NCBI RefSeq assembly: GCF_009299835.1
Contig: NZ_VKCZ01000021.1
Location: forward strand, 124,001 to 188,000
DNA: 64,000 nt
Source of the DNA: Microlunatus speluncae
Lineage (GTDB): Bacteria; Actinomycetota; Actinomycetes; Propionibacteriales; Propionibacteriaceae
Direction: 5' to 3'
Below the pieces are notes generated by a model. The model ran no database searches and was not told where the DNA came from. It saw nothing but the letters and a program-made list of their open reading frames with translations. Shown piece after piece: positions 13,916 to 31,162 of the stretch. Both the position numbers and the translations under genes were made by a program. The stretch's first letter is position 1. Each line of letters opens with the position of its first letter.

Positions 13916-13935
13916 CCCTTCGACAGGCTCAGGGG
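13916..13935. repeat. Short dispersed repeat TTCGACAGGCTCAG
   Basis: The segment CCCTTCGACAGGCTCAGGGG lies just upstream of the kinase gene. The reverse complement, CCCTGAGCCTGTCGAAGGG, recurs at 53274 and, in two copies, at 60114-60152. It is a short widespread bacterial intergenic repeat with partial dyad symmetry (CCCT/AGGG ends). Confidence 0.7.
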
Positions 13936-26164: not shown

Positions 26165-28228
26165 ATGATGCCGCTCCATCGCCTGACACCACCCACGCCC
26201 GGTCGCACCGGCGGCCGGTGTAACCGGCTGGGACTGATCGTGCTGATCATCGGCCTCGGGCTGGGGATGATCATCCCCGGCGCCGCCGCAGCGCGGGCCG
26301 CGACGAGGGAGGTCACGTTGCCGATTGCCGAGCACGGCGCGATCCCGCTGACCGCGACCACGGTTGCCGGCGCCATGTCGGGCACCATGCCCGACGGCAC
26401 CGCGCGGACCTGGGCGGCGGTCAGCGGGAAGCCGGCCTATCTGGCCGAGATCGACCCGATCGCCGGCGACGTGATCACGACCTATCCGATGCCGGATTCC
26501 GGCGGCGCGTGGGGCGTCGAGATCGGCCCGGACGGCACGGTGTGGGTGGCGAGCTACGGCAGTGGCAATCTCTACTACCTGCCGTTCGGGGCCGCCGCGA
26601 TCATCAACGCCGGCCGGCCGCATCCGCAGACCAGCTTCCTCTGGCAGGTCGACACCGACGCCGACGGAATCGCCTACACCGGCACCTTCCAGGGTTTCGC
26701 CGGCGGCTCGGTGCTACCGCCGGCCCGGGTCGCCGCGTTCGACCCGAAGACCGGGCAGTACCGCGACTACGGCGAGTTCGGCGCCGCGTACACCTACGTC
26801 CGCTCGACCGCGGTGATCGGCAACACGATCTATGCCGGGATGGGGACGACGGCGGCGCTGTTCGCGATCGACATCGACAGCGGCGCCAAGTCCGAGATCC
26901 CTTTGCCGGAAGGCCGGGAGGGCTGCCAGTTCACCTATGAGCTGGCGACGTCCGGGACCGATCTCTGGGTCCGGTTCGACTGCACCAAGATCAGCTACGG
27001 CTACGTGTACGACACCGTCGGCCGGGCCTGGACCCGCGGCCCGCTCACCGGCTACAGCGATCAACGGGTCGGCCGCGACACCGCCGGCAACACCTGGTTC
27101 ACCATCGGCTCGACGCTGCACCGCCTCAGCCCCGACGGCGAGGACACCGAGCTCGACGCCGCGATCGGCAGCAAGGGCATCGGCGTCGTCGAGTCCGGCG
27201 GCCAGGAGTACGTGATCGGCCTGACCAACAACGTGCTCGACCGCTACGACATCGCCACCGGCGAGCAGGAACAGCACATCCTCGACCTGCCCGGCACCCC
27301 GACCACGCCGCGCTCCGCGGTGCTCGGGCCGGACGGCCGGCTGCACTTCGGCGGCTACTTCTCCGGCGGCCTGGCCAGCTTCGATCCCGCCGCCGAGGAG
27401 TGGCAGTTCCAGGCCCGGCTCGGTCAGACCGAGGGCTTCGCCACGGTCGGCGACCGTCTCTACGGCGGCCACTATCCCGGCGCCAAGATCGAGAAGATCG
27501 ATCCGACCAAGCCGCTGGGCTCGGGCAACCCGACCGAGGTGTTCAACCTGACCGCCGAGGGGCAGGACCGGCCGTTCGCGCTGACCGACGCCGGCGGGCT
27601 GCTGGCCGTCGGGACCGTGCCCGGCTACGGCAACCTCCAGGGCGCGTTGGCGATCCACGACCCCGCGACCGGCGACGTCGACCGCTATGTCGGGCTGATC
27701 CCGGACCAGTGCATCACCGCGCTGGCGTACGCGAACGGCGTGGTCTACGGCGGCACCTCGGTCTACGGCGGCAACGGGGTCGAGCCGACCCAGGACAACG
27801 CCCGGGTCTTCGCCTTCGATCTGTTGACCCGGAAGCTGCTCTGGAACGTCGAGGTCGAGGGCCAGCGCCAGGTCACCTCACTCGAGGTCACTCCCGGCCG
27901 CCGGGTCTGGGCCGGGACGAAGGGCACCCTGCACGCGCTCTCCACCGTCGACGGGAAGCAGGTCGCCGATTACGAGATCGCACCGTTCGACTGGTCCACC
28001 TTCCCCGGCGGCACCTGGCAGGGCACCAGCCTCGCCTACGACCCGAGCACCAACCGCCTCTACGGCTCGATCGGGGGCAAGGTGATCAGGATCCGTCCCG
28101 CCGGGCGCCCGGACCTGCAGATCCTCGCCGGCACCGGCGGCGCCCACATCGTCCTCGCCCCCGACCACCGCCTGTACTTCGTCAACGGCCAGAACCTGAA
28201 GAGCATCGACTGGCGCGAAGCCGACTGA
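26165..28228 (+). CDS. Secreted beta-propeller protein (PQQ/NHL-like repeats)
   Basis: 687 residues. A long signal peptide or anchor includes LGLIVLIIGLGLGMIIPGAAAARA (about 22-46). The rest is made of ~40-residue beta-propeller blades with recurring patterns such as GVEIGPDGTVWVASYG, AVIGNTIYAGMGTTAALFAIDI and VFAFDLLTRKLLWNVEVEG. It lacks recognisable catalytic residues and probably binds a polymer or scaffold outside the cell, although such propellers can also be lyases. The start is the ATG at 26165; no clear Shine-Dalgarno except GGGGG. The 1-kb repeat array begins just after the stop. Confidence 0.82.
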   Translation: MMPLHRLTPPTPGRTGGRCNRLGLIVLIIGLGLGMIIPGAAAARAATREVTLPIAEHGAIPLTATTVAGAMSGTMPDGTARTWAAVSGKPAYLAEIDPIAGDVITTYPMPDSGGAWGVEIGPDGTVWVASYGSGNLYYLPFGAAAIINAGRPHPQTSFLWQVDTDADGIAYTGTFQGFAGGSVLPPARVAAFDPKTGQYRDYGEFGAAYTYVRSTAVIGNTIYAGMGTTAALFAIDIDSGAKSEIPLPEGREGCQFTYELATSGTDLWVRFDCTKISYGYVYDTVGRAWTRGPLTGYSDQRVGRDTAGNTWFTIGSTLHRLSPDGEDTELDAAIGSKGIGVVESGGQEYVIGLTNNVLDRYDIATGEQEQHILDLPGTPTTPRSAVLGPDGRLHFGGYFSGGLASFDPAAEEWQFQARLGQTEGFATVGDRLYGGHYPGAKIEKIDPTKPLGSGNPTEVFNLTAEGQDRPFALTDAGGLLAVGTVPGYGNLQGALAIHDPATGDVDRYVGLIPDQCITALAYANGVVYGGTSVYGGNGVEPTQDNARVFAFDLLTRKLLWNVEVEGQRQVTSLEVTPGRRVWAGTKGTLHALSTVDGKQVADYEIAPFDWSTFPGGTWQGTSLAYDPSTNRLYGSIGGKVIRIRPAGRPDLQILAGTGGAHIVLAPDHRLYFVNGQNLKSIDWREAD

Positions 28229-28265
28229 GCCCAGGCAGGCCACCCTCGCGGGGCGCCGCATCGGC

Positions 28266-29250
28266 GGACGCGACCACTATCGGCGGACGCGACCGCCACA
28301 ACGATCGCGCGGACGAACAACAGTCGCGCGCACCAGCACCATCGCGAAGCGCCCGAGCGACTGTCTCGCGACGCGACCGCCACCTGCCGACGCGACCGCT
28401 ACAACGATCGCGCCCGCCCACAACAGTCGCGCCGCCGCGAACACCGCTCCCGCGGCACCGAAACAGGACTCGGTAGCAGATCCGGCACCATCAGCCAGCA
28501 AGCACTCACGACCAGCCCGACGCGACCCGAATCTGCCGACGCGACCGCCACAACGATCGCGCCCGCCCACAACAGTCGCGCGACACCACGAGGCTTTGCC
28601 AGCGCTCCTCGCGCCGAGGCGATAGTCGCGCCGGCACCATCCGCGAAGCGCAGCAACACTCGCGCCCGAGCGACTATCTCGCGACGCGACCCCTACCTGC
28701 CGACGCGACCGCCACAACGATCGCGCCCGCCCACAACAGTCGCGCGGCACCACGAGACTTGCCAGCGATCCTCGCGCAGAGGCGACAGTCTCGTCCGGCG
28801 CGACCACTATCGGCAGCCGCGACCGCCACAACGGTCGCGCGGCGGAACAACAGTCGCGCCGGCACCATCGCGAACCGCAGCAACACTCGCGCCCGAGCGA
28901 CTATCTCGCGACGCGACCGCCGCCTGCCGACGCGACCGCCACAACGATCGCGCCCGCCCGCAACAGTCGCGCCACCGCGAGCACCGACCTGCGCGAACGC
29001 TTCGCGAGCAAAGCCGAAGCCACCGGTCGGGCAACAACGCCGCCAGCACCAGCGACTCACGGCAAGAGCCCGGCGCGACCACTATCGGCAGCCGCGACCG
29101 CTACAACAGTCGCGCGGGCGAACAGCAGTCGCGCCGGCACCATCGCGAAGCGCAGCAATACTCGCGCCGATGCGACTATCCCGCGATGCGACCGCTGCCT
29201 GCCGACGCGACCGTCGACGAGGGTCGCGCGACTTGTCGGCGGCGGTCGCG
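28266..29250. repeat. 1-kb array of nested GC-rich repeats, non-coding
   Basis: A 1,070-base gap between genes is filled with degenerate repeats. The core unit is about 48 bp: TGCCGACGCGACCGC, ACAACGATCGCGC, then CCGCCCACAACAGTCGCGC. Copies start at 28281, 28385, 28534, 28698, 28811, 28925 and 29086, with a partial one near 29190. They are 100-165 bp apart, and the material between is itself repeated: GCGACCACTATCGGC (28270, 28799, 29075), AGCGCAGCAACACTCGCGC and GCGACTATCTCGCGACGCGACC (28350, 28640, 28870, 29145), and a CACCACGAG..CTTGCCAGCG block (28583, 28749). This gives higher-order units of about 275 bp. Frames that stay open on the minus strand have biased R/G/V composition and no start signals, so I do not call genes. 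Confidence 0.85.
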
Positions 29251-29299
29251 TGACCGGTGGTGCGGGTCGCGATCGGCCGAAAGGCAGAGGTCGGGACGG

Positions 29300-31162
29300 T
29301 CAGGGGTCGAGGGGTAGGGCTGTGTCGTCGGGTGACTGGGCGGGAGCGGATCCGCCGAGCACTTCGAGGACCTGGTCGCCGTACTTGGCGAGCTTGTTTT
29401 CCCCCACGCCGCTGATCGTGCCCAGCTCGGTCAGGTCGGCCGGCTCGCGGCTCGCGATCTCGCGCAGGGTGGCGTCGTGGAAGATCACGTAGGCGGGCAG
29501 GCCCTGCTCCTTGGCGACCGAGGCCCGCCAGGCCCGCAGCCGCTCGAACAACGGCGCGGCCTCCTCGCTCAGCTCGGCCTGCGGGGCCCGAGCAGACCGG
29601 CTCCGCTGCTTGGCCTGGCGCGGCGGATCACGGCGCAGTGACACGGTGCGGTTCTCGTACAGCACCTCGCGGCTGGCCTCGGTCAGCAGGAACGTCTGGT
29701 ACGTGCCCTCGACGGCGAGCAGGCCCTGGGCCAGCAGCTGGCGGACCACTGTGCGCCACTCGGGCTCGCCCAGCTCGGCGCCGACGCCGAAGACGCTCAG
29801 TTGATCATGGTTGAACTGCTCCACCTTGGGCGTGCGCCGGCCGATCAGGATGTCGACGATCTGGCCGGCGCCGAAGCGCTGCCGGCGCTCCCGGTCGAGC
29901 CGGTAGACGGTGGACAGCACCTTCTGCGCCGCGACCGTGCCGTCCCAGGTCTCCGGCGGGGTGAGGCAGGTGTCGCAGTTGCCGCAGGCCTCCCCCGGCT
30001 GGCCGAAGTAGGCCAGCAGCTGGCTCCGCCGGCACTCGACGGTCTCGCACAACGCGAGCATCGCGTCCAGGTGTTGCGACAGCCGCCGCCGGTGCGCGAG
30101 GTCGCCTTCCGAGTCGTTGATCATCTTCCGCTGCTGCACCACGTCGGCGAGCCCGTACGCCAGCCAGGCGGTGGACGGCAGCCCGTCGCGGCCGGCCCGC
30201 CCGGTCTCCTGGTAGTAGCCCTCGACCGACTTCGGCAGGTCGAGATGGGCGACGAAGCGGACGTCGGGCTTGTCGATGCCCATCCCGAAGGCGATCGTCG
30301 CGACCATGATCACGCCGTCCTCGCGGAGGAACCGGGACTGGTTCTCGCTGCGGGTCCGGGCATCCAGACCGGCGTGGTACGGCAGCGCGGTGTAGCCCTG
30401 CCCGACCAGGAACTCGGCCGTCTTCTCCACCGACGCCCGGGACAGGCAGTAGACGATCCCGGCGTCGCCGGCGTGCTCGTTCTTCAGCAGCTCGATCAGC
30501 TGCCGCCGCGGCTCGTTCTTCGCCACGATCCGGTACTGGATATTGGGCCGGTCGAAGCTGGCCACGAAATGCCGGGCCTCGGTCAGGTCCAGCCGGGTCG
30601 CAATCTCGGCCCGGGTCGCCGCGGTCGCGGTCGCGGTGAGCGCGATCCGCGGCACGTCCGGCCAGCGCTCGTGCAGCTCGGACAGCGCCAGATAGTCCGG
30701 CCGGAAGTCGTGCCCCCACTGGGCGACGCAGTGCGCTTCGTCGATCGCGAACAAGGCGATCGAGCCCCGGTCCAGCAACCGCAGCGTCGACTCGACCCGG
30801 AGCCGTTCCGGCGCGAGATAGAGCAGATCGAGCTCGCCCTCAACGAAGGCGGCCTCGACCTCCCGCCGCTCCTCCGGCCCCTGGGTCGAGTTGAGGAAGC
30901 CGGCCCGGACGCCCAGGGCCCGCAACGCATCGACCTGGTCCTGCATCAGCGCGATCAGGGGTGAGACGACCACCCCGACGCCAGGCCTGGCCAGCGCGGG
31001 GATCTGGTAGCAGAGCGACTTCCCGCCGCCGGTCGGCATCAGCACCAGGGCGTCGCCGCCGCCGGTCACGTGCTCGATGATCTCGGCCTGTTCACCGCGG
31101 AACGCGTCGTAGCCGAAGACCCGTTTCAGGACATCGACCGGCAGCGTCGCGAGTGGCAGCAC
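29300..31162 (-). CDS. recQ: ATP-dependent DNA helicase RecQ
   Basis: 620 residues with full RecQ architecture. Helicase core: Walker A PTGGGKS (43-49), DEAH (141-144) then CVAQWGHDFRPDY, and YYQETGRAGRDG. The RecQ-Ct zinc site has four cysteines (CETVEC...ACGNCDTC), followed by a winged helix and a C-terminal HRDC domain (about 530-605). 3'-5' helicase acting in recombination and fork repair. The start is the GTG at 31162; GGAGGG lies very close upstream. An in-frame ATG farther up would add a Cys-rich stretch not seen in the family. It flanks the repeat array. Confidence 0.93.
   Translation of the reverse strand: MLPLATLPVDVLKRVFGYDAFRGEQAEIIEHVTGGGDALVLMPTGGGKSLCYQIPALARPGVGVVVSPLIALMQDQVDALRALGVRAGFLNSTQGPEERREVEAAFVEGELDLLYLAPERLRVESTLRLLDRGSIALFAIDEAHCVAQWGHDFRPDYLALSELHERWPDVPRIALTATATAATRAEIATRLDLTEARHFVASFDRPNIQYRIVAKNEPRRQLIELLKNEHAGDAGIVYCLSRASVEKTAEFLVGQGYTALPYHAGLDARTRSENQSRFLREDGVIMVATIAFGMGIDKPDVRFVAHLDLPKSVEGYYQETGRAGRDGLPSTAWLAYGLADVVQQRKMINDSEGDLAHRRRLSQHLDAMLALCETVECRRSQLLAYFGQPGEACGNCDTCLTPPETWDGTVAAQKVLSTVYRLDRERRQRFGAGQIVDILIGRRTPKVEQFNHDQLSVFGVGAELGEPEWRTVVRQLLAQGLLAVEGTYQTFLLTEASREVLYENRTVSLRRDPPRQAKQRSRSARAPQAELSEEAAPLFERLRAWRASVAKEQGLPAYVIFHDATLREIASREPADLTELGTISGVGENKLAKYGDQVLEVLGGSAPAQSPDDTALPLDP

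Follow-up and report, generated by a model that had tools for sequence, protein, structure and literature searches.

The kilobase of repeats beside recQ in the 64,000-nucleotide window (the whole stretch of Microlunatus speluncae DNA that was analyzed) contains a 60-bp near-palindrome built from four boxes, present in seven full copies and an eighth, degenerate one. The same four-box element is dispersed among intergenic gaps of this genome and of one sister genome. On balance, we consider that the array arose when a dispersed non-coding repeat of the REP/REPIN-like kind expanded locally in tandem, with the boxes acting as putative protein-recognition sites. The best reading of the element itself is that it is non-autonomous and lineage-restricted. 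In those stretches of the sister genome that were compared, most of its positions are not the same in both species.

Layout of the array beside recQ

The array (28269-29250, no strand assigned) lies in a gap of about 1.07 kb between convergent genes. On its left is a plus-strand gene (26240-28228) for a 662-aa protein with a weak, propeller-type PQQ_2 match that falls under the Pfam cut-off, and 41 bp separate the end of this gene from the start of the first element. The right neighbor, on the minus strand and convergent with the left gene, encodes a RecQ helicase (29300-31162) with Pfam matches to DEAD, Helicase_C, RecQ_Zn_bind, RQC and HRDC.

Comparison of loci by eye gave the true unit as CGCGAC-N13-CGCGAC-N10-GTCGCG-N13-GTCGCG, a 60-bp near-palindrome with its boxes oriented >>-<<. 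Seven full elements, likewise without an assigned strand, were found in the array. Five of them carry a single box mismatch (elements 1 to 4 at 28269-28328, 28372-28431, 28521-28580 and 28685-28744, and element 6 at 28912-28971), and the remaining two, elements 5 (28799-28858) and 7 (29074-29133), are perfect in all four boxes. A degenerate eighth element of no assigned strand (29187-29250), read off the sequence, has box gaps of 13, 11 and 16 in place of the usual 13, 10 and 13. The repeats were found where the original prediction had placed them, and its count of seven copies and one partial copy agrees with the elements listed. The unit of about 48 bp that it described does recur as a piece but covers only boxes 2 to 4 of the longer element.

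The start-to-start distances between elements 1 to 7 are 103, 149, 164, 114, 113 and 162 bp. A 144-bp block reappears at a distance of 275 bp (91% identity), and TRF reports a period of 113 bp (score 443) across 28624-28973, which bears out the higher-order layout of about 275 bp with repeating linkers that had been proposed. The view that the layout is unlike a simple tandem repeat also holds. A CRISPR array would need unique spacers between near-identical repeats; here the linkers recur and the elements diverge, as had been argued from the start. Open reading frames of up to 184 aa span the array mechanically, and our gene caller (self-written, based on codon usage, trained on the window and used in place of annotation there and at the other loci) places no gene in it, so that a coding array was rejected in line with the initial view that nothing there is coding.

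Copies, neighborhoods and turnover in two sister species

Full elements with no more than 2 of 24 box positions mismatched number 83 in the M. speluncae genome (G000; 6.8 Mb, a draft that is 97% complete), against 0 for the reversed control. A half-element pattern with a small freedom in its gaps gave 94 matches in the same genome and none for the reversed control pattern, and for this reason the array is not attributed to chance. With fixed spacing and at most one mismatch, the half pattern occurs 159 times (82+77) in G000 and 131 times (64+67) in the sister genome (G008; 7.2 Mb, one contig), and 0 times in each of the 18 other genomes of the genus searched. The spacing is rigid, as a gap of 13 between direct CGCGAC boxes was counted 122 times in the element loci of G000 and 112 times in those of G008, where the next commonest gap between two such boxes occurs at most 9 and 8 times respectively; no single gap of this kind exceeds 4 occurrences in 398 kb of G000 control stretches. 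The interior consensus differs between the two species whereas the boxes and the spacing are the same.

A blastn search gave 54 matches in the genome that carries the array. With a 341-bp piece, single matches were obtained in each of two further genomes (G018 and G038), and the 10-kb stretches around both contained no four-box element. The order sample comprised 391 genomes, and none of the 389 besides the two sister genomes held the four-box family; scattered half-matches with at most one mismatch (1-4 in a genome) were seen in 130 of these 389, with 0-3 per genome for the reversed control. The family was likewise found in none of 395 other genomes of the phylum, a sample without G008 that was searched with the full pattern at no more than 2 mismatches, although one of them held one isolated full-pattern place. 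Among the genomes searched, the four-box family therefore appears to be restricted to this lineage, namely to M. speluncae and one sister species. A viral source was also considered and was dropped, with 0 exact full elements in viral contigs. No published description of the element was found in the literature searched, which reached few subscription papers.

The element sets, chosen at no more than 3 of 24 box mismatches, contain 80 elements in G000 and 62 in G008. None of the 80 and none of the 62 lies inside a called gene, and one G000 element overlaps a gene end by about 12 bp. The G000 elements occupy 28 classified gaps, of which 20 are convergent, 5 tandem and 3 divergent (a further gap at the edge of a stretch was left unclassified), compared with 27 convergent, 87 tandem and 52 divergent among 166 background gaps in the 398 kb of control stretches. 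For G008, the element gaps comprise 20 convergent, 23 tandem and no divergent gaps (n=43) against a background of 29, 82 and 58 (n=169). Convergent or tandem gaps, a REP-type location, thus account for 25 of the 28 classified gaps in G000 and for all 43 in G008. The loci in G008 were taken from exact half-matches together with blastn matches, and elements without an exact half may for that reason be missing from its set.

In tandem gaps the element is closer to the upstream stop codon in 4 of 5 cases in G000 and 21 of 23 in G008 (25 of 28 together). A position 10-60 bp past a stop codon was observed for 16 of 25 scored gaps in G000, against 9.6 expected from random placement in the same gaps, and for 29 of 42 in G008, against 15.6 expected. 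The median distance to the stop codon is low in G008 (0.5% of simulations are as low) and is not significant in G000 (9%). The clustering at 10-60 bp exceeds what mere tolerance of insertions would give, and could reflect targeting or a function at the 3' ends of genes. With respect to the G008 chromosome as a whole (dnaA at 3.683 Mb, calculated terminus at about 63 kb), none of the 41 element loci falls between about 7.00 Mb and 0.556 Mb around the terminus, but the loci do not depart significantly from a uniform distribution between ori and ter (KS p 0.64).

The comparison of sites between the two species covered about 0.8 of the 7.2 Mb of G008, in stretches that include the listed exact half-match loci. 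Flanking proteins identified a G008 counterpart for 9 of the 28 element gaps of G000, and the other 19 had none in the stretches compared. Only two neighboring gaps, which flank a single gene (locus L021, matching L222 in G008), are occupied in both species. At the L011 gap both flanking genes are kept in G008 (L195) and the element is absent there. The G008 recQ locus, at which a counterpart was found for recQ only and not for the left gene, contains no four-box element either. With so few common sites, and with the L195 and recQ loci empty, the family looks mobile or rapidly turning over on this small comparison. The ends of isolated elements (24 in G000 and 36 in G008) show no consistent direct repeat, and no clean empty site emerged. 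A connection with the neighboring recQ helicase, once regarded as attractive, appears incidental because 27 other classified gaps have the element and the sister recQ locus does not.

Several further features were observed in the same stretches. A second dispersed repeat with the core GACAGGCTCAGG occurs in the window at 13922 (+), 53275 (-) and 60136 (-); the G000 control stretches (398 kb) hold 41 copies of it and an equal length of G008 holds 8. At L011:4164-4560 its copies form a tandem array that shares an intergenic gap with a four-box element. The word GTGACCTTTTCCAC recurs between genes at L017 and L023 and lies in part inside an inverted repeat; it has 4 occurrences in the G000 element loci, 1 in the G000 controls and 0 in the G008 stretches. 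A gene of about 300 aa (L021:5154-6065 in G000 and L222:4682-5572 in G008, 67-68% identical) has element clusters on both sides in both species. This gene may be AbiEi/DUF559-like; Pfam gives no match. It was rejected as a REPtron-like partner gene, since all 20 genus genomes searched have relatives, including 18 without a half-match to the element, and since Pfam assigned it to no family.

Boxes, arms and the RNA question

The boxes differ far less between loci than the interior does. In G000 the mean pairwise difference is 5.1% for boxes and 39.6% for the interior (2,992 pairs), and in G008 it is 2.5% and 29.8% respectively (1,861 pairs), with box conservation being partly inflated since the elements were picked by their boxes. 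When matches were picked by the interior alone, using a profile trained on the same box-picked elements, 79 of 84 in G000 and 62 of 70 in G008 had no more than 3 of 24 box mismatches.

The arms do not show the compensatory base changes expected of a conserved stem, either in arm-pairing permutations or in chimera folding. Out of 13 possible Watson-Crick pairs, the outer arms form on average 6.84 within elements against 7.13 when permuted in G000, and 8.02 against 8.42 in G008. The inner arms, with 5 possible pairs, form 2.29 against 2.82 and 3.35 against 3.56 respectively. When each locus contributes one element only, G000 shows no difference in its outer arms (7.46 against 7.58), and the outer arms of G008 still pair less well (7.88 against 8.37). 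Columns 11, 13, 15 and 26 are systematically mismatched between the arms in G008. Real elements also fold slightly worse than two-element chimeras, a result obtained for both strands and both species in all 8 shuffles. Since the boxes and their spacing are conserved and the arms lack compensatory pairing, the conserved information looks like DNA boxes held at a set spacing rather than an RNA stem. As judged from sequence, we favor recognition at the DNA level as the meaning of constrained boxes at rigid spacing, and a role of the array as a protein-binding site is possible.

These results bear on the proposal that the element acts as RNA, that is, as a hairpin at the 3' end of mRNA which terminates transcription or protects the message, in both directions where genes converge. 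The frequent position 10-60 bp from a stop codon would suit such a role. So would the folding of the seven window elements, which reaches -31 to -46 kcal/mol on the sense strand of recQ compared with -20 to -29 kcal/mol on the other strand. Arm mismatches are moreover coherently G.U on one strand; in G000 the sum of |GU-AC| reaches 317, where 5,000 simulations average 146 and do not exceed 191, and in G008 the value of 121 falls just inside the simulated range (mean 89, maximum 123). This coherence can nevertheless be explained by strand-biased composition, because the linkers on the G.U strand share the skew, with T exceeding A in 12 of 14 arrays, and because the T+G-rich strand of the G008 elements coincides with the leading strand at 27 loci and with the lagging strand at 9. 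Eight G000 loci can be oriented on G008, and their strand is mixed. The flanks of the G008 elements (loci L147-L151 and L205-L239) were also observed to lean T+G-rich in the same way in sum.

Evidence for a terminator is similarly lacking in the array, as a scan of 28100-29400 found no U-tract or intrinsic terminator within it; the sole terminator-like site (29376-29391) lies outside, and one such site compares with 0.9 in shuffles. Rfam has no match over 27800-29700 up to E 1. The outer arms of one element pair worse than those of different elements in three of the four comparisons made and about equally in the fourth, and chimeras fold better, so that the early suggestion of a structured RNA receives no support from covariation. 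The RNA hairpin was therefore dropped as the main explanation and we regard it as doubtful. Given the strength of the hairpins on the recQ sense strand, the four-box elements may still have an effect on RNA.

Rival readings and likeness to known repeats

The boxes could instead be sites for a host chromosome protein of the kind of gyrase or a nucleoid protein and be under selection at points of converging transcription, in which case the array would be a high-capacity site. Constrained boxes at fixed spacing, the convergent bias in both species and the spread of 41 loci over most of the G008 chromosome would all be expected of such sites. It is harder to reconcile with this proposal that few sites were found in common between the sister species, that the 18 other genus genomes examined have no half-matches, that 23 of the 43 G008 gaps are tandem, and that the distribution along the ori-ter axis of G008 shows no departure from uniform. 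We therefore consider host-protein sites to be unlikely, though somewhat less so than the RNA hairpin. A neutral GC-rich repeat grown by slippage, with no recognized part, was among the initial suggestions and agrees with array copies that recur together with their linkers and with a sister recQ locus that lacks the element. However, drift would hardly keep boxes at 2.5-5% difference beside interiors at 30-40%, a contrast that expanding neutral repeats do not easily explain. Nor would it give the identical spacing seen in both species despite their different interiors, and dispersal to 28 gaps requires a copying route. This last explanation is the least probable of those considered, and we give it very little weight.

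The four-box element shares traits with several known systems. The BIMEs of E. coli are clusters of palindromic units and linkers at the 3' ends of genes, proposed to serve as sites for host chromosome proteins (gyrase, a nucleoid protein or similar) where transcription converges. Our array resembles them in its clustered palindromic units with linkers and in its location at gene 3' ends, whereas the element is unrelated to them in sequence and architecture. MITEs are non-coding, multi-copy sequences with inverted ends, as is the four-box element, which unlike them has no parent transposon in the stretches read and no consistent target-site duplication among the isolated elements. In integron attC arrays the repeated units are imperfect palindromes whose arms contain mismatches and which have four short boxes each. 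This description also fits our array, but CGCGAC boxes do not fit the attC core, and no gene is called between the window copies. The imperfect arms may also recall the hairpins that HUH enzymes read in single-stranded form.

The closest likeness is to REPs and REPINs. GTAG-type REPs are tied to RAYT transposases. A REP survey describes GTAG and CGTC superfamilies of tagged 20-40 bp palindromes that are extragenic, lie mostly in convergent or tandem gaps downstream of coding regions and are often lineage-specific; CGTC REPs are stated there to be without a dedicated transposase (PMC3733652). The four-box element is alike in being a short, imperfect palindrome in many extragenic copies (83 full ones in G000) that occupies convergent and tandem gaps and can cluster, and is unlike in its 60-bp length, four equal boxes and rigid spacing. 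The original prediction that the array is unlike REPs was thus not upheld, since the element is dispersed, extragenic, imperfectly palindromic and located at gene 3' ends, as REPs are. A GTAG tag occurs in 1 of 80 elements in G000 and in at most 2 of 62 in G008. CGTC formed jointly by box and flank occurs in 49 of 80 and 3 of 62 respectively and is not a conserved family tag. The search for a mobilizer by profile covered the Y1 family; Y1_Tnp (PF01797; Y1/RAYT transposase) has 0 matches in either genome, with 5 of 14 control genomes positive, and a RAYT-driven REP was therefore rejected. Lacking a conserved GTAG or CGTC tag and a Y1/RAYT match, the element is named REP-like and not REP. The main text of the survey has 0 matches to 'actino' and names no Actinobacteria (PMC3733652).

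Under the preferred reading of a locally expanded REP-like repeat, the CGCGAC boxes would be recognized as DNA by a protein that would copy or move the element, and the form recognized would be either the duplex or a single strand folded into an imperfect hairpin. The element would persist mainly downstream of genes because insertion there would spare coding sequence and promoters. Once settled, an element and its linkers might expand by tandem duplication to give the nested layout beside recQ; if the 3' ends of recQ or of the left gene were affected at all, this would be a secondary consequence.

A more ambitious proposal, which we put forward only tentatively and consider unlikely, is that the family represents a new actinobacterial mobile or chromosome-organizing DNA site. 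Such a site would be a >><< four-box palindrome that avoids perfect pairing, is recognized by a putative non-Y1/RAYT protein, settles tens of bp from stop codons and builds arrays. The REP-like populations of the two sister species agree in boxes and spacing but not in interiors, their sites mostly differ where these are comparable, and neither genome has a Y1 match. The four-box populations would thereby offer a natural test of REP-like spread without a Y1 transposase and of settling just past stop codons.
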